Positions 12,040 through 24,695 of a DNA stretch of 24,695 bases are shown here, in pieces. Positions within the stretch are counted from its first letter, which is position 1, and each line of letters opens with the position of its first letter. Location: assembly GCA_022566355.1 (NCBI GenBank), contig JADFJB010000063.1, positions 1-24,695 on the forward strand, read 5' to 3'. The notes under the pieces were generated by a model. The model was not told the origin of the DNA, did no database searches, and saw nothing but the letters and a program-made list of their open reading frames with translations. Made by a program: the position numbers and the translations under genes. This stretch comes from a candidate division KSB1 bacterium. Lineage in GTDB: Bacteria > Zhuqueibacterota > JdFR-76 > DREG01.

Positions 12040-15000
12040 CTAACGAATCAATATCATTCGTTTTATTTGGTGATGGTTGTCACTTGAAAATTTATAATAA
12101 TAGATTCCGGAAGGAACCAGATTTCCTAATCGATCCTTACCGTCCCATGAAACCCGGTGAATCCCCGGTTCATAAGTTTTATTTGTCAAAATATGGATTA
12201 ATTGTCCAAGAGTATTGAATATATGAATCGTTACTGCTTCTTTGGCAGGCATGTGAAATTGAATCACTGTGTTCGTTTGGCCAAGTTTTAAAGCCAATGG
12301 ATTGGGAAAATTTTGATCCAATTGAAAATAGGAAGGCAATTGAAACCAAACCTGGACAGGTCCATGTTCTGTAATGAAGCCTTGAATATTTTTATCCAAC
12401 AACTTATAGTAATACCGAAAACCGGGAATTATATCTTCATCGAGAAATTCATAGTTCCCATCAAGATTTGGTGGAATTAATTGAGAATTAATTTTTTTAT
12501 AACCCAAATCCTTTTGCTTTGATCGCAAAATGTCAAATCCTAAATTATCAGACTCAAATGTGGTTTTCCAGTGTAATAAAACGGTATTTGATGCCAGATC
12601 TGCTTGGGCATTAAATTGAACAAGTTTAACCGATACGATTACTGTGACAAACCATTTAAATGAAACAGTATCTTCACTGTCTGATACAAATACCTCCACA
12701 ATATCCTGGCCGGAAAAATTTGGATTGGATTCATAAACAAAACTAACAGATTGACTCACTTCTACGTCATTTAATTCCCAAATATAGGTTAACTCTTCTT
12801 CGTCAGGATCTGTAATTTTCAGGCTAAATTCAATTGAACGACCCCGGATTATGGTAGTGTCGCCTGCAGGATGTACATTTGTAATCATTGGCGGTCTGTT
12901 TACATTTATAACATCGATTATAACAGTATCCTTGACTACTCCACCACGGTTGTCTGCAACCGAATATGCAATTGGATGCTCACCGCTTTGCCTAAAATTA
13001 GGCGTCCAGTCAAACCGCCAGGATACAGCGTTCACTTTAGTAACAACAGCTCCATCCGGTAGTTCATTGACCTCGACGTTTACAGGATCGCTTTCGGGGT
13101 CAATCACTGAAATATCAAAACTGACAAACTCGTTCTCCCTGACTTGTAAATCAGGAGTACTTGAAACTATTAACGGAATTTCATTTTCAATGGCTGTTAT
13201 ATGATAAGATAATACTTGGTTTGGTAAACTGGCAGCAAAGGCTAACGCTTCTATTTGTGTTGCGTTTTCACCAACCCGTAACTGGCTTTTGGCTATTCCT
13301 TCGTCGTTAGTCAGTTTAATAGAATCACCCTCAACTGTCGCCTCACCATCGGATACGACAAAAGCAACAGGTTCATTTGGTACCGGATTATTGTAAATAT
13401 CAGTAACTTTTACCACAAGGGGTTCGGAAAGATAATATCCTTTTGTTCCGATTTGCTGGTCTCCGCTAACCAAAATTATATTGTGTGCCACACTGGAAGA
13501 TATCTGAACAGTGAAGACAACCTTTTCTGCTGGATTCTTTACTAAGCTGGCAGCAATCTTTGCAATTCCGGGAGTAGTCTTAGCTTGTATTATTGTACTG
13601 GCAAGACCAGAACTATTTGAAACTACCGGTTGTGCAGTTATAATAATGGCATCGCCCTCAATAACTTCAAACATGACTCCCGTACCGGAAACAGGGTTAT
13701 GAAACGTATCTCTGGTAATAATTGTCATAGATGTGCTTTGTTCCAAAGGACGAATAACCTGGTTATCACCGGAGTGTAAATCAATTTGTGTTGCTCCGGA
13801 TGGTGCCGTATTGGCAAAAAATGTAAGTGATACACCTTGTACTAAACTTGATTTGGCACTAATAACTTGAGTAATCAGTTCCGGACCAAGTATAGGCTTG
13901 GTTGAAGCTTTGCCAAAAGCATCTGATAAAATGGGTTGTGGTTCAACGAATGAGCCACTGCCGGCACTAAATTGAAAACTAACAGGGACATCCATCACAG
14001 GATCGTCATTTGCATCTAAAGTTTCAACAATTAAGGGTTGGTTCAAAGTATCACCGACTATTCCGGTTTGAAGATCTCCGGAAACTGCAAGTATTTTCGC
14101 CACTGGATTCCGAACTCCGCTGACACTGAAAATTATAGGATTACCTGTCAGACCATCTGCAATCGCTTCAATTATATTCGTTCCTTCGGATTCGCTTAAA
14201 ATATAATGAGTCGAAGCAAACCCTAATGAATCAGTTAGTACAGGTTGGATTTCGACAAAATAACCACCTGTTGTTTGTGACGTAAATGTTACCGGGTAAT
14301 TAGGAACCGGATTATCGAACATATCTGTGACAGAAACAACAATTGGATTCGCTAAAACTGTTCCAACATTTCTGGTTTGAGCATTCCCGTCTTGTAGTTT
14401 AATTTGATTTGCTGTTGTAGAGATAAATTCAGCTACAGCTTTGCTATTTATTTCAATATTGTCATCAACATTTCTGGCATGAATAGTTTTTTTACCGGAT
14501 TTAAGAGAAGTCATATGTCCAACAGTTTGGCCGGTATCGTCAGTAACCGGTGGTTGTTCAAAAAAATTAAGCTCGCCAGTAGCAGATAAAAACACCTCTT
14601 TCCCTGCAATCGGGTTATTAAATTGATCCCGCAAAATAATAGTGATAGTTGCTTTATCCTGATTATCTGCAATGGTTGGAGAAGTTACATGAATTTCAGA
14701 ACTATCAGGATCTGTTAAATCAGGCAGGGTGGTAGCATTAAATGTGATTGGTGATTGAATTAAATCTAAGATGCCGTTGTCCGAAGTAGCTTCAATTTTA
14801 TTTAGATCCGTTCCGATTTTTGTACCTAATGTCCATGAAATTTCAGCAATTCCGCTTTCATTGGTTGATACTACCAGAGAAGTGTCGTGCTGAGCATTGG
14901 CTATTCTCCCATTACCCGTAATAATGCGAAATTTCACCTCATGTGAAGGAACAGGTAAATTTGCACTATCTACAACTTTAACCTGCACAGGTTCAATTAC

Positions 15001-18000
15001 CTTTCCAACTATTCCTGTTAGTTGGGTTTGGGTTATCGCTTCAATTTTAATGGCAGGGCTTTCTGCCGCCGAAGCCAAAATAGATATGGGTGATCCTTGT
15101 AACGGAACAAAACCATCAGAAGCTGTTACTCTTATTTGGTTGTTATTTATGCCGGCTTTGTTTCCGAGAGTAAAAATCACAGAAACCTTTCCATTACTAT
15201 TGGTATTTTTCACCACTGTGGTATCACTATTATTATCAAAGGTGCCTCCACCGGAAATCACCTGAAATTCAACAGGGATACCTGCAACCGGATTATCATT
15301 TGAATTTAAGACCAGAACTTCAATGGGTTGAGGAAGTTGGCTGTCAATTACACCAATTTGATTGTTACCTTTAATAATAGAAATCTTTTCCGCATCAAAT
15401 TTACCTGAGGCTGTAAAAACAACAGGAGAACCAACGAGAGGTAATGATCCACGCAATCCGGATGCATGAACCAGATTTGAGCCTTCCCCAACGAACGAAC
15501 CCATTCTTAAGGTGGCAGATGCAATCCCATCTTCATCTGTTGGCGTTGTCTGACTTAAATCAACTGTATCGACAAATAAACCTCCTCCTGCTATTACTTT
15601 AAAAGTAACAGGATGGTTTTTTATGGGTTCATTAATTGGATTTGTTACACGCACACGAAACGGCGCATCTAACGGTTTATTGATTATCCCAACCAACGAA
15701 TCTCCATCAACAAGAGTGATTTTGTAAGCAGTCGGCGAAACAGCTGTTGCTACAAATTCAACCGGTGATCCTTGCAATCCGTCACTGCTTGCTTGTACTC
15801 GATAAGCAAATTCACTCATATCACTACCTAAAGTTAATATAACCCCAGCTTTCCCCAAGCTATCTGTTGTAACGGATAACTGTGTTAATCCTCCGGCAAA
15901 AATACCATCACCAGAGATTATTTTAAATAAGACCGATATATTTTTTACAGGGTTTCCGAATTCATCACTAACCTCCGCAACAAAAGGTTCAACAAGTGGA
16001 AAATTTGAGATTCCTGCAATACTGTCACCCGAAACTTTCCTTAATTGAAATGCAGGCCCATGTGTTGCACTAACGGAAAAAACAATTGGAGAATCTAATA
16101 AACCCAGAGCAATGGCATGGATGCTATAATTTCCTATACTATTTCCAAAAGTAAAACTAACTTGCGCCTTTCCTTCTGAATTCGTAAGAACCGTATCAGC
16201 AGATAATGAACCCCCCAGGTTTGAAACAATACTAAAAACTACAGGAAACTTTTCAATTGGACTGTTTTGTTGATCGGAAATTTTTACCACTAAAAGTTCA
16301 GGTAAAGTAGACCCAATTTCACCACCCTGGTTTGACCCTGAGACAAATTCTATTTGTGTAGGTATTCCTGATGTGGCTATTGCTAAAAATTCCACCGGAG
16401 AGCCATTTAGTCCGTCAGCATGTGCCAGAACCCGGTTATTGGTCTCACTTTTACCTAATTCCAGGTCAACCGCTGCTTTGCCATCTTCATCTGTAAGAAC
16501 CGGTTGGATTTCTATGATCCTCCCGTCTCCTTCAACAAGCTCATATAACACAGAAACATTTGGGGTGGGATTGCCAAAATCATCAGATGCTAGTACTACC
16601 AACGGATTGGATAATACTTGTCCTGCCGGCCCAGTTTGATTATTCCCTGAAAATTCTGCAATTGTAACCGGAGCATTAGGCAAAGCCCGGATATTAAAAA
16701 TCACTTCTTGCTCGGGTACATCGAACAGGAAAGCCTTAATTGATATATCGCCAGAGCGTGAATTTAACAACACAAAAGCTTCTGATAAGCCAAGATAATT
16801 ACTAAAATATAATGGATTCCCTCCAAATCCGGAAGGTTGAAAAGTTAAGTCACGCGTTATGATTAATCTATCTAATTTTGTGTTGATATCTCTATTTCTT
16901 AAAATTAATTTATGAAAACCTTTATTTAAATTAATTTCATATGGATCTACTGCTGGAGTTTTCACACTTCCGCTTCCACGAGAGGAAACTAGATCCCAAT
17001 CCCAGGCGGATTTTTGATTACCTTGCCAAACATCCCATAAAATTTCATTAAAATCATCCACTTGAATAAAAAAAGAATCCTCTGTTCCTGATGGCGCTAG
17101 AACTCTCCCCCAAATTTTATAAATACCATCTTGATCAATATAAAAATCATACACAACCGTACTTGTATCTGACTCTCCGGCAACAGTGTTAATATAGGAT
17201 CCACCTGATGTGTTAGATGCATTGTCAACAATAAATGAATTGCCTTCAATAATTCCATCTTCTGCCTCAATTCTTATGGTTCCACTTGGATTTAAAGGAG
17301 GAATTAAACGAGCATCGCCTTCAATAATCTCATACTTGATTTTAGCAGCATAAACCGGAGATCCTAAATCATCGTTAACCTTAACAACAAGGGGGTCGGG
17401 AAATAATTGATTTAAAATACCATCTTGATCATCACCGGATTCAACTGATATAGATGCAGGAATTGTCTTTAGTGAAATTACGAAAAAATTATCAGCTGCA
17501 ACGCTTGAGTTGCCCTGGAAAATTAATCCACAATATTGCACCTGAGAATTCCCAAATAATTTATTGTTATCACTTAAAACACCATTGAAGCTACTGTCCA
17601 CAAAAATTACAAAGTCATGAGAAGTTTCTGTGGAATACGTGAATACTTTCAAAGTTGAACCGGAAACCAGATCCATATGATATTTAAATGAATTTATTTT
17701 TTGTAAAGGATTGCCTTGATCCACAGTCCATAATTGAAATTCATTTGTAGAACTTTCAGCTCTTATCATATATCCATTGGCAGTTGTAGTGGGTTCTTGC
17801 AGCATGACTAACAAACCAATTTTATCAATTTCAGATTGTGATGAGATATTCAACCAATTAAAGCCAAGTTCAATAGGCGACGTTGGTGAAATCAAGACTG
17901 CCGCTGACTTCCATCCGGATTGGCTGTTCGCTGTCTTTAAAGCGCCCTCCGATATTACAACATCATCTGAAGTTTGCCATTGCTCTCCAAGTTCGGTTCT

Positions 18001-19638
18001 GTTGAAATCCTCATCAAATTGGACAGATTCAACCGTGGACCCCATTATTGAACCATCCGAAATAGGTGAAGCATTGTTATTTTCATCGATTGCTTTTATT
18101 GCGAAATAATAGTCAGTTTTACGCTTCAACCCGGTAATAAAGATACTTTCATCAGAACCTTGTTCATTTGGAGTTTGAGAAACAATTGCTGCAGTTGCTT
18201 GTTCAAAATTGGATTCAATTATTGGATCAGTTGAAAAACGTAAATCATAATTGGATGCCGAGCCGGTTAAACTGTCGTCACCAGTCGCAGTAAAACTAAA
18301 CTGCGCAGATGTTGGACCGGTACGAACCAGAGCAAAATCGCTAATAGCAGCGGGAGGTTCCTTATCAACAACACTTGATAGGGAAAAATCATCGATATTA
18401 TTGTTCTGACTGCCTTTTAGCATAATGCCGGCATAACGAACTTCATTGGCGCCTGGGGGAGTTGTAGTATGGGTGAGCTCTCCAAAAAGTGTATTGTTGA
18501 TTTTCACCGTTATTCGAAGTTCCGGTGAATTGAAACTCCAATTCATAAAAAACAAATTCCCGGATTGGGGCATAGGCAAAAGTCCAGATTCACTTGCCAA
18601 ATTCGACCCGACCTTGCCATCAATTAATTCCCACAATTTCAGCGATCCGTTATTTAAGGTTAGTAAAAAACCGTTTGCATCAATACTTGAGGAATTTAAT
18701 AAGAAAACTACTCCTGTTTCAGATCTACCTAATTCATCGGAAGTCAGGCTATATTTGAATGTAATTGTGTTGGGGCTGGCTACGGAATTGATAACAGCCA
18801 GGTAATTATCCCAGGTGTCTTGGTTTGAACTGTTTCTCAATTCATTATTACTAATTCGATAATTCGGGTGTGTTGTCCAATTTGGGCCCAGAAAAAATCG
18901 ATCGTTAAAATTGTCTGCAAAAGATTCCGAGGCAATATACCTGGATGAAGAATTTAAACTATTTAAAATGACATCTGCCATTACTCCATAACCATCATCA
19001 TTTGGGAAGTAATCATCACTCATAAAAATACTGGACCAACTTGGAATTTCAGTGAAAGCAGTATTGATATCTACAAAATAAACCGAAATCCCTTGTGCGG
19101 ATTTTGTATCCACTAATGTTTGAAGTTGAAGATTTAAACCATCAATATTTGAATTTACCACCTGGTCTCTACTTGGAATTAATGATGAAAGATAAATTTC
19201 AATTTCAGAGCTGTAATTTGAGATGTTGTCGATTACACTTGATAAACCGTTAAATACAGTGCCAACATTACCATTTGCAATGAGATCTTCCGTTCCCAAA
19301 TGAACAATAACGATATGTGGCTGATAGAGTTGAATTGTTGATAATAAATCCTGATTGATATCATTAACTGTCGAAGCAGCATGACCTTCGTGGTCAGGGT
19401 CCGTTGAGACTCCATCGTTTTGAGTACCTACAAAATCGAAGGGCATTAATCCTGCATTTAAGAACAAATGAAGATCATCACGGAAACCACCTACATTATT
19501 GGTCGATCCGGTACCTATAACCGTAGCATCACCAAGCGGCATTACTCGAATTTGAGAAAACAGGGTGATTGAATTTATACTATTTGAAATAATAAGAAAG
19601 GCAATGAGGAAAGTTAATCCTAATTTCTTATGATTCAT
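12040..19638 (-). CDS. giant secreted protein: degenerate SGNH/CE3-like domain, ConA-like, FnIII, CBM6-like, Ig-repeat stalk, type A sorting domain
   Basis: This is a 2532-residue exported protein. AAAGG 8 nt upstream supports ATG 19638. Residues 1-29 are a signal peptide. Residues 31-229 form an SGNH hydrolase-like domain of CE3 type (GGFRDDLHLFLNAG, FDFVGTQNDG, HEGHAASTV), but the motifs read GDAT (A38 for Ser), GTED (E117 for Asn) and DDYFP (F211 for His), so catalysis is unlikely. Next come a ConA-like domain (~238-422), FnIII (~428-532), a second ConA-like domain (~540-724), then an Ig domain split by a CBM6-like insert (~787-935), followed by about eleven invasin/Big_1-like repeats to ~2200. 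Cadherin-like or PKD-like Ig domains, an FnIII-like segment and a ~97-residue sorting domain (NFPNP … GxxxVxWDGKDRLGNLVPSGIYYYKF … KRMILIR) finish it. It likely acts as a surface stalk or binder. Sorting by a type IX system is inferred. Confidence 0.88.
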   Translation of the reverse strand: MNHKKLGLTFLIAFLIISNSINSITLFSQIRVMPLGDATVIGTGSTNNVGGFRDDLHLFLNAGLMPFDFVGTQNDGVSTDPDHEGHAASTVNDINQDLLSTIQLYQPHIVIVHLGTEDLIANGNVGTVFNGLSSVIDNISNYSSEIEIYLSSLIPSRDQVVNSNIDGLNLQLQTLVDTKSAQGISVYFVDINTAFTEIPSWSSIFMSDDYFPNDDGYGVMADVILNSLNSSSRYIASESFADNFNDRFFLGPNWTTHPNYRISNNELRNSSNQDTWDNYLAVINSVASPNTITFKYSLTSDELGRSETGVVFLLNSSSIDANGFLLTLNNGSLKLWELIDGKVGSNLASESGLLPMPQSGNLFFMNWSFNSPELRITVKINNTLFGELTHTTTPPGANEVRYAGIMLKGSQNNNIDDFSLSSVVDKEPPAAISDFALVRTGPTSAQFSFTATGDDSLTGSASNYDLRFSTDPIIESNFEQATAAIVSQTPNEQGSDESIFITGLKRKTDYYFAIKAIDENNNASPISDGSIMGSTVESVQFDEDFNRTELGEQWQTSDDVVISEGALKTANSQSGWKSAAVLISPTSPIELGFNWLNISSQSEIDKIGLLVMLQEPTTTANGYMIRAESSTNEFQLWTVDQGNPLQKINSFKYHMDLVSGSTLKVFTYSTETSHDFVIFVDSSFNGVLSDNNKLFGNSQVQYCGLIFQGNSSVAADNFFVISLKTIPASISVESGDDQDGILNQLFPDPLVVKVNDDLGSPVYAAKIKYEIIEGDARLIPPLNPSGTIRIEAEDGIIEGNSFIVDNASNTSGGSYINTVAGESDTSTVVYDFYIDQDGIYKIWGRVLAPSGTEDSFFIQVDDFNEILWDVWQGNQKSAWDWDLVSSRGSGSVKTPAVDPYEINLNKGFHKLILRNRDINTKLDRLIITRDLTFQPSGFGGNPLYFSNYLGLSEAFVLLNSRSGDISIKAFLFDVPEQEVIFNIRALPNAPVTIAEFSGNNQTGPAGQVLSNPLVVLASDDFGNPTPNVSVLYELVEGDGRIIEIQPVLTDEDGKAAVDLELGKSETNNRVLAHADGLNGSPVEFLAIATSGIPTQIEFVSGSNQGGEIGSTLPELLVVKISDQQNSPIEKFPVVFSIVSNLGGSLSADTVLTNSEGKAQVSFTFGNSIGNYSIHAIALGLLDSPIVFSVSATHGPAFQLRKVSGDSIAGISNFPLVEPFVAEVSDEFGNPVKNISVLFKIISGDGIFAGGLTQLSVTTDSLGKAGVILTLGSDMSEFAYRVQASSDGLQGSPVEFVATAVSPTAYKITLVDGDSLVGIINKPLDAPFRVRVTNPINEPIKNHPVTFKVIAGGGLFVDTVDLSQTTPTDEDGIASATLRMGSFVGEGSNLVHASGLRGSLPLVGSPVVFTASGKFDAEKISIIKGNNQIGVIDSQLPQPIEVLVLNSNDNPVAGIPVEFQVISGGGTFDNNSDTTVVKNTNSNGKVSVIFTLGNKAGINNNQIRVTASDGFVPLQGSPISILASAAESPAIKIEAITQTQLTGIVGKVIEPVQVKVVDSANLPVPSHEVKFRIITGNGRIANAQHDTSLVVSTNESGIAEISWTLGTKIGTDLNKIEATSDNGILDLIQSPITFNATTLPDLTDPDSSEIHVTSPTIADNQDKATITIILRDQFNNPIAGKEVFLSATGELNFFEQPPVTDDTGQTVGHMTSLKSGKKTIHARNVDDNIEINSKAVAEFISTTANQIKLQDGNAQTRNVGTVLANPIVVSVTDMFDNPVPNYPVTFTSQTTGGYFVEIQPVLTDSLGFASTHYILSESEGTNIIEAIADGLTGNPIIFSVSGVRNPVAKILAVSGDLQTGIVGDTLNQPLIVETLDANDDPVMDVPVSFQFSAGSGSFVEPQPILSDAFGKASTKPILGPELITQVISAKSSLVQGVSLTFFANTAPSGATQIDLHSGDNQVIRPLEQSTSMTIITRDTFHNPVSGTGVMFEVIEGDAIIITAQPVVSNSSGLASTIIQAKTTPGIAKIAASLVKNPAEKVVFTVQISSSVAHNIILVSGDQQIGTKGYYLSEPLVVKVTDIYNNPVPNEPVAFVVSDGEATVEGDSIKLTNDEGIAKSQLRVGENATQIEALAFAASLPNQVLSYHITAIENEIPLIVSSTPDLQVRENEFVSFDISVIDPESDPVNVEVNELPDGAVVTKVNAVSWRFDWTPNFRQSGEHPIAYSVADNRGGVVKDTVIIDVINVNRPPMITNVHPAGDTTIIRGRSIEFSLKITDPDEEELTYIWELNDVEVSQSVSFVYESNPNFSGQDIVEVFVSDSEDTVSFKWFVTVIVSVKLVQFNAQADLASNTVLLHWKTTFESDNLGFDILRSKQKDLGYKKINSQLIPPNLDGNYEFLDEDIIPGFRYYYKLLDKNIQGFITEHGPVQVWFQLPSYFQLDQNFPNPLALKLGQTNTVIQFHMPAKEAVTIHIFNTLGQLIHILTNKTYEPGIHRVSWDGKDRLGNLVPSGIYYYKFSSDNHHQIKRMILIR
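16834..17280 (-). other. CBM6-like carbohydrate-binding domain inserted inside an Ig repeat
   Basis: Within the giant protein, residues ~787-935 read IRIEAEDGIIEGNSFIV, SGGSYINTVAGES, YDFYIDQDGIYKIWGRV and GFHKLILRNRDINTKLDRLII, the strand pattern of CBM6/CBM35-type domains. The segment before it (SVESGDDQDGILNQLFPDPL … IIEGDARLIPP) is the first half of an Ig repeat. The segment after it (LGLSEAFVLLNSRSGDISIK … VIFNIRALP) is the second half, so the domain is a nested insertion. Confidence 0.65.
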
Positions 19639-20036
19639 TTACTAATCCTTTAGATGAATTTAAAAACAGACTCGTCCGATTTAGTAGAAATAGGAAACAA
19701 TTTTTGTGCCAATGTTTTCAACCTAAACTATTGAAAAATAAAGACTATAAATGTGTCATTTTAGTGAGAATGTGTTCCACATTAACACATTATTTCATGA
19801 TTATCAACTGGAAAACTTAAAAAATGTTTAGCTGTAAATATGATAAAATAAGGCAAGCTGCTGCTAATTCATTGCATTGAATAAAAAATGAATTTACCTA
19901 TCAATGAGAATGACCATTTGAAAAATAATAAAAAGGGCAACCTTCTTAAAGAGAGTTTCACTCTTGTTCCATTGATAATAGCCAGAATATTAGTACTTCC
20001 AATCACAAATTTGGATCAATTCATCATTCGGTATTA
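19639..20036. other. 398-nt spacer between the two giant genes
   Basis: No credible gene is present; a small plus-strand frame at 19888-20094 overlaps the end of the neighbouring gene and looks like chance. The spacer is strongly AT-rich and should hold the promoter of the 12040-19638 gene. A ribosome site AAAGG lies close to 19650 on the minus strand. Confidence 0.6.
19769..19791. promoter_or_regulatory. perfect inverted repeat, candidate operator
   Basis: AATGTGTT (19769-19776) and AACACATT (19784-19791) are perfect 8-nt arms around the 7-nt spacer CCACATT, about 130 nt upstream of the giant gene's start on the minus strand. The TGTGT…ACACA pattern is reminiscent of CRP/FNR-type sites, but the spacing is not canonical. 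There is no T-run, so it is not a terminator. Confidence 0.35.
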
Positions 20037-23000
20037 TCAATTTAAAATAATCAAACGCTTTTGCTTAACAAATTCTTCAGTTTGCATAATGTAAAAATAA
20101 ACACCTGAACTAACAATATTACCATAATCATTACGGCCATCCCAAATTGTTTGGTGATATCCAACTTGTTTTTCATCTTGAACCAGGGTTCGTATTTTCC
20201 TACCAAGAATATCGTAAACATTTATCCGTACTTCCCCTTCTTCAGGTAATTGATAATTAATCACAGTTACTTGTAATTCATAGCCGCCTTTAGGATTAAA
20301 TGGATTCGGATAACTTTGCAATAAATCAAATTCTTCAGGAAGAGGTTGAGTTATCTGTGGTTCTAAAATTTCAACAAGCTTGGGAGCAACATTAAATGAG
20401 CTAAAAGGTAAATTAATGACTTGACTATAAGCATTAAAATACGTTTGCGCCATTACTGAATAGCCAAGATCATTTGGATGGAGCTCATCGGACATATAAT
20501 CTTGACTATTTCCAGTAAATAATTGGGAGTTATCTTTAAATGGCGAATAGTGGTTTACAAGATATACCGGTTCAGATTTTCCAGTAATGGTTCCATTATT
20601 AAAATCGTCGACTAATCTTTCGATTTCATCGTTGAAAAACGGTAATTCATCCTCTGGATTTTTTCCATCTGCCAATTCCCAATCTCTATTTTTTCTTGGA
20701 ATTAATTGACTCACAAATAAGTATTCTAAAAAATTACCAAAGACGCCTTCGCGCCATTGAAGTAAATATCTTACAAATTCTGCCAGTTCACCAGAAGTTG
20801 AACTAAGGATTGTCCCGTTACTGGAATAAGGAATATTAAATGTCTCAATAGTCAAATCGTTTGTTCCTAAATGTATCATCAGGACATTTGGATTATATGT
20901 ATTCATGTTATTCGTGATATCATACTCTCCAGTGCCTAATCCGTACCCAAAATTACTTGGAAAGAATTGATTGATCTTTTTCCCAGGGAAAAAATAACCA
21001 GTATATGGATTAGATCCTTCACTACCAACAAATTCAAAACTGAAATTGGAATTTATTAATAAACCGTATAAATCCGGCCGAAATCCTTGGTTATCTGAAC
21101 TGCCTTCACCCCATGTAATTGAATCTCCTACCAACATAATTTTCTTGGTACTTGCAGGAGGAGGTATTATTATTGTTGTGGTCGGTGCATTGCTAGAATT
21201 ACTATATGGCGAAGATCCTATACCATTAAATGATCGAATCCTAAAATAATAGGTGGTACCAGATGTTAACCCAGTTATATTTGTGGATCTTAAATTAGCT
21301 GGAACACTTTTGATAGGAGAAAAATCTGGGTTATTATTCGTTAAACTACTCTCAATAATAAATCCAAACTCGCTAGTACTATTATCAAGCCACGAAAGTG
21401 CAATTTCTGACGAAGATTGTTCCTGTGCAGAAAGGTTAGTTGGAGCTATTGGTAAACTACCGTTTTTATTTGGCGTTCCAGCATTAAAATTTTGTTGGAC
21501 TTCTTCAAAAGATAACGCTCGATTATAAGCCGATACTAAATATATCTTTCCCAACCATTGACGATTATTAGAAGCCTCATTTCCCAATACTAATGGGAAA
21601 GTTGGATCCCAATTCGAAAAACCACCAGATAAAGTGACCGTTTGGTTTTGTAAAATTCCATTCACATACAGCCTTGTTGTTGATCCATCAAATGTGGAAA
21701 CAACATGTTGAGGGGATGTACTAACTGCTCCTTCTACATTCAAGACAGGATCAGCTCCATTCAACCCGCTTTGCGGTGTTCGGACACGCATTACATAGCT
21801 GGTTCCATCTTGTCCAAAAGTAAAATTCCGTGATGACTGATCCTTAGAATTGGAAATAATACGAGCCGGGCCGCTTTGGGTTAAATTCTCAATTTCAACC
21901 CAAGCTTCAACTGTCAAAGAATTAGTAGATGTCATGCTATTAAATACTTTTGTTGCCGCTCCTGATGATTGTGCTTTTACACCTTCCGATATTAAATGCA
22001 ATCCTCCATTTTGCAACCATTGCACTTTGTTAATGTCATTTATTTCCAAATCCAGTGGTTCTCCAAATCCTGAAGCATCATTAATCACATTGCCAGTACC
22101 GGAAAAATTATATAATACGATCAAACCGTCACTTACACGATTAGGATCTGTCAAAGCAATGGAATGATCTTCACTAATAGCAAGATTGCCACTTTGGTCT
22201 CGCGAAAGTACCCTAAAGTGATAAACTACACCTGGAATTAGATTCTTTAACTTAATTGAATGTTGTGTTTTCAAAGTTGTCTCTATTGATGTAATATTTC
22301 CATATCCAGAATTTGTACCATATTCAATTTGACTATCACTTATTTCATCTGTCTCCCATTGAATTACAACCGATGAATTTGTTAAGCTATCAATCACAAC
22401 ATTCGTTATTAAAGGGGTTATGTTATCCAAATAAGTTATTTTATAAACGGCATTATTAATAATTGACAAATAATAAAGATTGCCATCTGCACCGACTTTT
22501 AAATCTACCGGACCCGACACATTTGAAGCAAATTCTTCAACCTGATTATTTTGTTTTAATCTCCTAATAAAACCAAGGATATAATCAGCAAAAAAATAAT
22601 CTCCTTGATATTCTACAGGGTAGAGATCTCCCCGATAAAATGTGCCTCCGGTTATGGCCGCAGAACCTCCATTATGATTGTATGAGTATATTGGATCCTG
22701 AAATGAAGAGTTGGACGAAGATCCCTCTTCCGATGGCCAGCCATAATTAGTACCTTTAACCAAATAATTAATTTCCTCCCAGGTATCTTCTCCAACATCA
22801 TTCACATAAATTTTACCTGACTCCGGATCAACGGCAAATGTGAATGGATTTCGGAAACCAAGTGCCCAGATCTCTTCATGGGCATTTGAAGTTCCAACAA
22901 ATGGATTACCCGGGGGGATGATATTAGGATAATTATTCGGATCAATTCTCAATAATTTTCCAGAAAGAGATTCCAAAGATTGAGAAGACTCTTGAACATG

Positions 23001-24695
23001 CCCGTCTCCAACAGCAACATACAAATACCCGTCTTTGCCAAAATGGATAGCTCCTCCATTATGGTATTCGGAAGGAGAGGGGATGTCGATAATTACAACT
23101 TCACTATTAGGATCAGCAATATCCGGGTTCGTACTACTGATAGAAAAACGGCTAACTCGATTTGAGACTGGATTATTGGATGTATAATGAATATAAATAT
23201 ATCCATTCGATTCAAAGTTTGGATCAAAAGATATACCAAGTAATCCGCGTTCACCATTTGATTCAACAGGAACAGACAAGAAAGGCAAAGGAAGAAACAC
23301 GCCTTCTTTAAAAATTCGTATTTTACCAGCCTTTTCGAGGATAAAAAGTCTGCCATCGGGTGAAAATCCCATTGCTATTGGTGTATCCAAACCATCTACA
23401 ACCAGTTTATTTGAGAATAATTGCGGCAATATAACCGTTGATTCAGATGGTGGAATGCCATCGCCCACAATACTGAATACACCATCACTCACATCTGAAG
23501 GATCGCCGTCTAATGCATCAGATACTCGAACCAAACAACTGCTCGATAGCAAGTCCGGAACTGTCCAATCATAACTGCCATCATTTGGCGTCGAGTCGAT
23601 GATCTCAGTCCAGCTTTGGCCATTGTTCAACGAATATTCCAACTTCACATTCGAAATCTCTCCTTGTGAAGTCCAACTAAGCGACTGTGTGCTATTGACA
23701 AGCCAATTTTCTCCGCCATTCGCTGATGTCAATACAATGGTCTCACCGAGGATTTTTACAATTGTATAATTATCAATTACCTCTCCTGAAGGAATGATGA
23801 ATTTAAATACTGCACTAGTATTGTTTACTTCGACCAGCATGGCTCCGTAATCATCATTATACCTGACAACACTTCCTTCAATAGGAGTCCCAAAACTGCG
23901 TATACTTTTCCCACCCAATCCATTGACAAAATAAGGGAGATCATCAAAAATTATCCGTTCATAATCATGTTCATGTCCGGCAAATACTGCATCGGCTCCC
24001 CATTCTTTAAAAGGCCACTGCATAATAACTTCGGAGCCGTGATGATCACCCGAAGAATAGGGTGGGTGATGCATATAAACAAAATTAAACTGTGAACTAG
24101 AAACAGCTAAATTATTTTTTAACCAAAGAGCCTGGATTGAAGTTTTTGAAATTCCATCCGGCTCAAGAGTATCACTATCCATCGCAAAAAAATGAACCGG
24201 CCCCCATATGAACTCATAATATCTTTCATTGCCAGGTAAGGTAAAATAGTCCCGATAAGGTATTGCACCGCTAGTATTCCAATCATGATTACCTAATGAA
24301 GGAAAAAATCGATTGATATCTGCTCCAGAACCATAGGTGCCCTGATAAGGATAAATAAATTCATGATAATATTGGCCTATATTTACATCAACCGTGGATG
24401 CTTCTCCAAGATCATAGTTATTATCTCCCACAGTAATAATAAAATCCGGATTCCAACTTTTGACCAGATTGGCCACTGTCTCTTCATTATGGCCAGCATC
24501 TCCATAATCTCCAATTACTGCAAAGAGAATTGTTTCAGATGATGGAATGCCATCATCCACAATACTGAACACACCGTCACTCACATCCGATGGATCACCG
24601 TCCGCTGCATCCGACACACGAATCAAACAACTAGTCGAGGGCGCATTCGGAACTGACCAGTCATAACTACCATCATTCGGCGTCGAGCCGATGAT
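20037..24695 (-). CDS. giant secreted multi-enzyme protein: metallophosphoesterase, PQQ-type sugar dehydrogenase, LamG, FnIII, SGNH esterase, type A sorting domain (5' end missing)
   Basis: The frame is open to the right edge, so the N-terminus is missing; 1552 codons are visible, numbered here from the edge. Residues 1-49 are the end of an Ig-like (Kre9/KNH-like) repeat. Residues 56-308 are a purple-acid-phosphatase-like metallophosphoesterase with GDYGD (D63), GDNNY (D91), GNHDW (N136, H137), MHHPP and GHEHDYER (H241, H243). A second Kre9-like repeat spans 316-411. Residues 420-758 are a glucose/sorbosone dehydrogenase (LDTPIAMGFSPDGRLFILEK, ERGLLGISFDPNF, YHNGGAIHFGKDGYLYVAVG with H545, WALGFRNPF, GTNYGWP). 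FnIII (759-849), a LamG-like domain (853-1073) and FnIII (1083-1175) follow. The SGNH domain (1184-1423) has intact GDSIT (S1192), GTND (N1279) and DELHPND (D1403, H1406). The last ~98 residues are a sorting domain (SYPNPFNP … WDGRNDYGNIVSSGVYFY). Substrates are unknown; extracellular glycan or phosphoester processing is plausible. Confidence 0.88.
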   Translation of the reverse strand: MIGSTPNDGSYDWSVPNAPSTSCLIRVSDAADGDPSDVSDGVFSIVDDGIPSSETILFAVIGDYGDAGHNEETVANLVKSWNPDFIITVGDNNYDLGEASTVDVNIGQYYHEFIYPYQGTYGSGADINRFFPSLGNHDWNTSGAIPYRDYFTLPGNERYYEFIWGPVHFFAMDSDTLEPDGISKTSIQALWLKNNLAVSSSQFNFVYMHHPPYSSGDHHGSEVIMQWPFKEWGADAVFAGHEHDYERIIFDDLPYFVNGLGGKSIRSFGTPIEGSVVRYNDDYGAMLVEVNNTSAVFKFIIPSGEVIDNYTIVKILGETIVLTSANGGENWLVNSTQSLSWTSQGEISNVKLEYSLNNGQSWTEIIDSTPNDGSYDWTVPDLLSSSCLVRVSDALDGDPSDVSDGVFSIVGDGIPPSESTVILPQLFSNKLVVDGLDTPIAMGFSPDGRLFILEKAGKIRIFKEGVFLPLPFLSVPVESNGERGLLGISFDPNFESNGYIYIHYTSNNPVSNRVSRFSISSTNPDIADPNSEVVIIDIPSPSEYHNGGAIHFGKDGYLYVAVGDGHVQESSQSLESLSGKLLRIDPNNYPNIIPPGNPFVGTSNAHEEIWALGFRNPFTFAVDPESGKIYVNDVGEDTWEEINYLVKGTNYGWPSEEGSSSNSSFQDPIYSYNHNGGSAAITGGTFYRGDLYPVEYQGDYFFADYILGFIRRLKQNNQVEEFASNVSGPVDLKVGADGNLYYLSIINNAVYKITYLDNITPLITNVVIDSLTNSSVVIQWETDEISDSQIEYGTNSGYGNITSIETTLKTQHSIKLKNLIPGVVYHFRVLSRDQSGNLAISEDHSIALTDPNRVSDGLIVLYNFSGTGNVINDASGFGEPLDLEINDINKVQWLQNGGLHLISEGVKAQSSGAATKVFNSMTSTNSLTVEAWVEIENLTQSGPARIISNSKDQSSRNFTFGQDGTSYVMRVRTPQSGLNGADPVLNVEGAVSTSPQHVVSTFDGSTTRLYVNGILQNQTVTLSGGFSNWDPTFPLVLGNEASNNRQWLGKIYLVSAYNRALSFEEVQQNFNAGTPNKNGSLPIAPTNLSAQEQSSSEIALSWLDNSTSEFGFIIESSLTNNNPDFSPIKSVPANLRSTNITGLTSGTTYYFRIRSFNGIGSSPYSNSSNAPTTTIIIPPPASTKKIMLVGDSITWGEGSSDNQGFRPDLYGLLINSNFSFEFVGSEGSNPYTGYFFPGKKINQFFPSNFGYGLGTGEYDITNNMNTYNPNVLMIHLGTNDLTIETFNIPYSSNGTILSSTSGELAEFVRYLLQWREGVFGNFLEYLFVSQLIPRKNRDWELADGKNPEDELPFFNDEIERLVDDFNNGTITGKSEPVYLVNHYSPFKDNSQLFTGNSQDYMSDELHPNDLGYSVMAQTYFNAYSQVINLPFSSFNVAPKLVEILEPQITQPLPEEFDLLQSYPNPFNPKGGYELQVTVINYQLPEEGEVRINVYDILGRKIRTLVQDEKQVGYHQTIWDGRNDYGNIVSSGVYFYIMQTEEFVKQKRLIILN
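23440..23603 (-). repeat. internal DNA duplication encoding an Ig-like module, copy 1
   Basis: This stretch pairs with 24532-24695 at a constant offset of 1092 nt (364 codons) with no indels and roughly four-fifths identity by eye. Both encode the Kre9-like segment ending STPNDGSYDW…VP…SC-L/I-VRVSDA-x-DGDPSDVSDGV. The similarity may extend beyond the window edge. Confidence 0.85.
24532..24695 (-). repeat. internal DNA duplication encoding an Ig-like module, copy 2 (cut by the edge)
   Basis: This is the partner of 23440-23603. The two modules precede the metallophosphoesterase and the sugar dehydrogenase respectively, so each catalytic domain has its own copy of the linker module, as if enzyme cassettes had been joined by recombination or duplication. 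Confidence 0.85.

Follow-up and report, generated by a model that had tools for sequence, protein, structure and literature searches.

A conserved, predicted CE3-type pseudo-esterase, putatively a non-catalytic binding head, in a giant KSB1 protein with a type IX sorting tail

The closest described relatives of the domain considered here are the carbohydrate esterases of family CE3, for which structures exist of CtCes3-1 (2VPT), of TcAE206 (5B5S) and of the S10A mutant of the latter (5B5L). These SGNH-fold enzymes carry their nucleophile Ser in a GXSXT motif of block I, together with the Asn of block III and the catalytic His of block V. A calcium loop with the motif DFVGXnDXD also belongs to the family (PMC9487903). 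Mutagenesis of another SGNH enzyme, the lipase SrL of Streptomyces rimosus, indicates what the catalytic positions contribute, as Ala at the equivalent Ser, Asn or His inactivates the enzyme and a Gly to Ala change merely weakens it (PMC10779480). Two further systems illustrate non-catalytic roles of related domains. The active site of the CE2 domain of CtCel5C-CE2 (CtCE2) doubles as a cellulose-binding site (PMC2661963), and the plant GDSL pseudoenzyme ERMO3/MVP1/GOLD36 has Gly at the Ser position and a non-catalytic role (PMC3498303). SGNH pseudoenzymes as such are thus already mentioned in the literature; a limited search found no description of a CE3-type pseudoenzyme, and likewise no paper on type IX secretion in KSB1.

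The window, which is the whole stretch of 24,695 nucleotides that was analysed, is one complete contig (C63) of genome G000 (4.62 Mb in 213 contigs, 98.5% complete). It encodes two large secreted proteins, P0001 and P0002, whose reading frames were found where the preliminary description had placed them. The other two genomes of the window's family, G001 and G002, belong to different genera, and each encodes a dead orthologue of P0001. The features discussed below are as follows.

12040..19638, minus strand: P0001, giant secreted protein of 2532 aa
12052..12309, minus strand: type A sorting domain of the type IX secretion system (T9SS) in P0001 (TIGR04183)
13219..17463, minus strand: array of Big_1/invasin-type Ig-like domains in 9 stretches, the presumed stalk (Pfam)
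16834..17283, minus strand: carbohydrate-binding-like region, residues 786-935 (soft label; weak, sub-threshold GH115_C match)
18367..18933, minus strand: first LamG-like region, residues 236-424 (soft label)
18949..19551, minus strand: CE3-type SGNH domain, residues 30-230, catalytically dead as judged by its sequence
19006..19008, minus strand: codon 211, catalytic His of block V, here Phe; Tyr in G001 and His in G002
19288..19290, minus strand: codon 117, oxyanion Asn of block III, here Glu; Asp and Glu in the orthologues, hence acidic in all three
19375..19377, minus strand: codon 88, oxyanion Gly of block II, here Ala; Glu and Asn in the orthologues
19525..19527, minus strand: codon 38, nucleophile of block I, Ala for Ser; Gly in both orthologues
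20037..24695, minus strand: P0002, secreted protein of 1552 aa, truncated at its 5′ end
20046..20312, minus strand: T9SS type A sorting domain of P0002 (TIGR04183)
20436..21149, minus strand: intact SGNH domain of P0002, residues 1183-1420, with GDSIT (Ser1192), GTND and DELHP

At the start of P0001 lies a hydrophobic, signal-like stretch, followed by the SGNH domain, a LamG-like region, fn3, a second LamG-like region, the carbohydrate-binding-like region, the Big_1 array, Big_9/PKD and the T9SS tail. The carbohydrate-binding-like region falls inside the span of the Big_1 array, and since neither it nor the LamG-like regions gave a Pfam match above the cut-off when searched alone, these labels are soft. 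P0002, whose 5′ end is cut off by the end of the contig, combines a purple-acid-phosphatase-like metallophosphoesterase, a glucose/sorbosone dehydrogenase-like domain (GSDH), LamG, fn3, the SGNH domain and a T9SS tail. P0001 lies 398 bp downstream of P0002 on the same strand, and its other neighbours in the window are an rlmD-like methyltransferase gene and pntAB, with no glycan context. Near the two genes, promoter and terminator scans did no better than on shuffled sequence.

P0002 has peculiarities of its own. The motifs of its metallophosphoesterase (23961-24524, minus strand) look intact (GDYGD, GDNNY, GNHDW, MHHPPY and GHEHDYER), and the joining of this domain, the GSDH-like domain (22467-23390, minus strand) and an SGNH domain in one T9SS-tailed protein is an unusual catalytic set. 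A repeat of 166 nt, 83% identical between its copies at 23438-23603 and 24530-24695, ends exactly at the contig edge, which is probably why the assembly stops at 24695.

That both proteins end in a type A sorting domain was borne out by TIGR04183 scores of 29.7 bits for P0001 and 27.7 bits for P0002, against a cut-off of 23 bits. A search of the genome found SprA, two C25 peptidases and 82 sorting-tail matches, which makes type IX export of P0001 plausible. This T9SS signature thus occurs in a KSB1-like lineage.

The SGNH domain of P0001 is predicted to have the fold of a CE3 esterase. An AlphaFold2 model of residues 28-232, built with 66 sequences, reached a pLDDT of 96.0 and a pTM of 0.92, and its closest solved structure is CtCes3-1 (2VPT; TM 0.88), on which it superposes with a Z score of 30.2 over 193 residues (rmsd 1.4, 28% identity). 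The next matches are TcAE206 (Z 27) and its Ser-to-Ala mutant, and a sequence search of the PDB agrees with this kinship (phmmer E 1.6e-18). Identity to the two enzymes is 24-28%, and the DFVG text of the calcium loop and the HEGH motif are shared. The preliminary description had proposed both the homology and the fold, and its conserved stretches GGFRDDLHLFL, FDFVG and HEGHAAST are indeed retained; they include the calcium loop, which is complete in P0001 (DFVG...DPD; Asp68, Asp80 and Asp82) and partly altered in both orthologues. Pfam GDSL families match P0001 and P0002 alike. The SGNH domain of P0002, which had been described as intact, does carry GDSIT, GTND and DELHPND, and was modelled with lower confidence (pLDDT 85.1).

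Unlike the CE3 enzymes, P0001 has replaced its catalytic Ser, Gly, Asn and His as well as the Thr of block I, and its SGNH domain forms the head of a 2532-residue protein with an Ig stalk and a T9SS tail. The degenerate motifs GDAT, GTED and DDYFPND were found as previously read: block I is GDATV, with Ala38 and Val40, and Glu117 and Phe211 occupy the positions of the Asn (block III) and the His (block V). In the 73 intact relatives collected from the phylum, Ser38, Thr40, Arg53, Asn117, Asp118 and His211 are invariant, so that the combination Ala, Glu and Phe at the three catalytic positions is far from chance. Three losses come in addition to those noted before, namely Gly88 to Ala in block II, Thr40 to Val in block I and Arg156 to Ser. 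By analogy with the SrL mutants, the domain would have no esterase activity. In all, about eight conserved positions of the catalytic region are remodelled, and the core motifs GGFRDDL, FVG, HEG and the calcium loop are kept.

Much of this remodelling is common to the three family members. Ser38, Thr40 and Asn117 are gone in all three dead proteins, as are Gly88 and Arg156 (the latter pair 93% conserved in the intact relatives); an aromatic residue at position 89, present in 47 of the 73, is absent throughout the trio. An acidic residue at 117 was gained by all three, and aromatics at 210-211 by two. The earlier suggestion that nucleophile, oxyanion Asn and His were replaced all at once holds for P0001 and fails for the clade: Ser and Asn are lost in both orthologues, but whereas G001 also lacks His, G002 still has it, which suggests a loss in steps.

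A survey of 82 genomes of the phylum yielded 92 unique SGNH domains, of which 83 are intact at Ser, Asn and His, 5 are dead and 4 are truncated, which makes the dead state rare (5 of 88 readable domains). At the Ser, Asn and His positions the dead five read A/E/F in P0001, G/D/Y in G001, G/E/H in G002, and G/V/L and E/A/H in two proteins of the distant genome G075. Giant SGNH-LamG-Big_1 proteins elsewhere in the phylum, such as G006:C211 (2537 aa), share the full-length domain order of P0001 at 26-42% identity per domain and, unlike it, keep the catalytic set intact. Two trees, one of the SGNH domain with the catalytic columns removed and one of the adjacent LamG-fn3-LamG region, both show the family trio as one fully supported clade and put G075 elsewhere; at least two independent losses are therefore needed. 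We propose that the P0001 domain goes back to a CE3-type polysaccharide acetyl-esterase whose catalytic set disappeared along the stem of the window's family.

The two G075 proteins, both of independent origin, sit in different surroundings. One is a 3396-codon frame adjoining a polysaccharide deacetylase gene (C110; L208 3331-13518), and the other lies among protein-kinase-like and PP2C-phosphatase-like genes (C228; L209 9240-12752). A contig scan with the whole of P0001 as query matched nothing, whereas an alignment query matched relatives. A wider scan of genomes with patterns that did not require the catalytic Ser gave two more candidates, in Anaerolineae SJ143 (L063, L/L/L) and in a member of the Polyangiaceae (L109, G/N/K); as CE3-like SGNH domains that lack Ser and His by sequence, these are possible further independent pseudo-esterases. 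No relative of the P0001 head was found in the viral contigs searched.

Loss of the catalytic set has not freed the domain from constraint. Within the dead trio the SGNH domains are 60, 50 and 48% identical, which makes this the best conserved domain in two of the three comparisons and places it no more than 1 percentage point off the best in the third. Of six domains compared between G000 and G001, it has the lowest dN (0.33 vs 0.39-0.54), and the domains of the intact pair from G006 and G004 rank likewise (0.30 vs 0.43-0.52), so by identity and dN, the two measures that apply where synonymous sites are saturated, the constraint on dead and intact SGNH domains is about equally strong. No copy has internal stop codons, and the frames are open over 1883-2532 codons. 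A fold kept under purifying selection and a loss of essential residues shared by orthologues of three genera mark the domain as a probable pseudoenzyme, and its rank among the best conserved domains of the dead trio indicates selection for something other than catalysis.

Taken together, the catalytic loss common to three genera and the good conservation of the domain make it probable that the pseudo-esterase is a glycan-binding or structural head and not an enzyme. P0001 would be a type IX-secreted surface protein in which an N-terminal head is carried on a long stalk of Ig domains. The first domain of this head would descend from a CE3-type polysaccharide acetyl-esterase whose catalytic set was lost and whose fold has since been kept, and it would serve as a non-catalytic binding head for a polysaccharide or for a neighbouring surface protein, in whose recognition the LamG-like and carbohydrate-binding-like regions that follow would share. 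From the architecture we infer that the SGNH domain lies outermost on the head at the stalk tip, the stalk being attached or released through the T9SS. Taken as a whole, this reading, a conserved pseudo-esterase that tops an Ig stalk displayed by the T9SS and binds without catalysis, has in our view an even chance.

Binding, which we infer as the function of the domain, can be set beside the known cases. Genes for glycosyltransferases, a flippase or a polysaccharide deacetylase adjoin the intact giants of G004 and G006 as well as one of the dead proteins of G075, a hint that the ancestral substrate was a polysaccharide. With catalysis lost, the cleft may serve binding, as that of CtCE2 does for cellulose, or the domain may work by protein contacts, as ERMO3/MVP1 seems to do. 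CtCE2 resembles the proposed head as an SGNH-type carbohydrate esterase domain of a modular protein whose cleft is used for non-catalytic polysaccharide binding (PMC2661963); it belongs to family CE2, however, is still active, and binds cellulose via a Ser-His dyad that is absent in P0001. ERMO3/MVP1/GOLD36 shares with the dead domains of G001 and G002 the Gly in place of the nucleophile Ser, but it is a vacuolar/ER protein of plants and belongs to another GDSL group.

The alternative that survives best is that the dead domain has no ligand and simply heads P0001 as a structural spacer or a folding cap. The remodelling of some eight positions with retention of the core motifs would fit such a role, as would the fixed multidomain order, common to intact and dead versions, in which the domain is embedded. 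The residue changes point both ways: an acidic 117 and, in two of the trio, aromatics at 210-211 were gained, but since the aromatic at 89 is lost throughout the trio, the old ligand need not be retained, and with Thr40 and Arg156 lost as well, the ancestral ligand may now go unbound and the domain could be purely structural. On the other hand, the domain is held about as tightly as its counterpart in the intact pair and at least as tightly as the domains around it, and a mere spacer would not obviously need the conserved derived residues (Val40, the acidic 117 and the small residue at 38). We regard a spacer as rather unlikely, and favour binding as roughly twice as probable.

A second alternative follows the preliminary description, which took the dead member for a possible lectin or scaffold, in pairing an active with a dead protein: P0002 and P0001 would form a dedicated pair in which the dead member presents substrate to the active one. 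The two genes are adjacent on one strand, and intact SGNH domains are present in all four genomes that have dead ones, although the CE3-like one of G001 is a fragment at a contig end. In G002 an intact SGNH paralogue even lies about 3 kb upstream of the dead giant, but this is a different protein of 885 aa with an N-terminal SGNH domain, and the arrangement is not a conserved operon. The SGNH domain of P0002, moreover, belongs to a different, strongly separated clade. P0002 itself lacks an orthologue in the family; as query it found common modules and no full-length relative in family or order genomes, so that the adjacency is not conserved. No fixed or conserved active partner was found among the four genomes with dead copies. 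The pairing is accordingly quite improbable, and P0002 is an independent secreted protein and not a fixed partner of P0001. A recent duplication of the P0002 SGNH domain into P0001 was also considered and rejected.

New catalytic chemistry, through the acidic residue at 117 or others, is still less probable. In its favour, the dead orthologues of the trio all have an acidic residue at 117 (E, D, E), and several of the substitutions are common to them and non-random; yet Ala or Gly at 38 offers no nucleophile candidate at the old position, and we know of no SGNH enzyme that works in such a manner. Finally, sequencing or assembly error and gene decay, which drafts in many contigs and the rarity of the dead state (5 of 88) might suggest, are rejected as having next to no likelihood: Ser and Asn are missing alike from the orthologues of three genera, all frames are open over their 1883-2532 codons, and the SGNH domain is under strong constraint.

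A GDSL or CE annotation of a giant surface protein therefore does not amount to esterase activity unless the catalytic residues are checked. The proteins form a natural series that runs from intact relatives of the same order through an intermediate with its His retained to fully dead versions, and the series lets the change from enzyme to presumed receptor be tested directly. More speculatively, and with considerable doubt, esterases at the tips of T9SS stalks may have been converted repeatedly to non-catalytic glycan receptors, at least twice in the phylum and with candidates in Chloroflexota and Myxococcota; they would then constitute a class of CE3-derived surface lectins, whose signature in the window's family would include an acidic residue where the oxyanion Asn had been.
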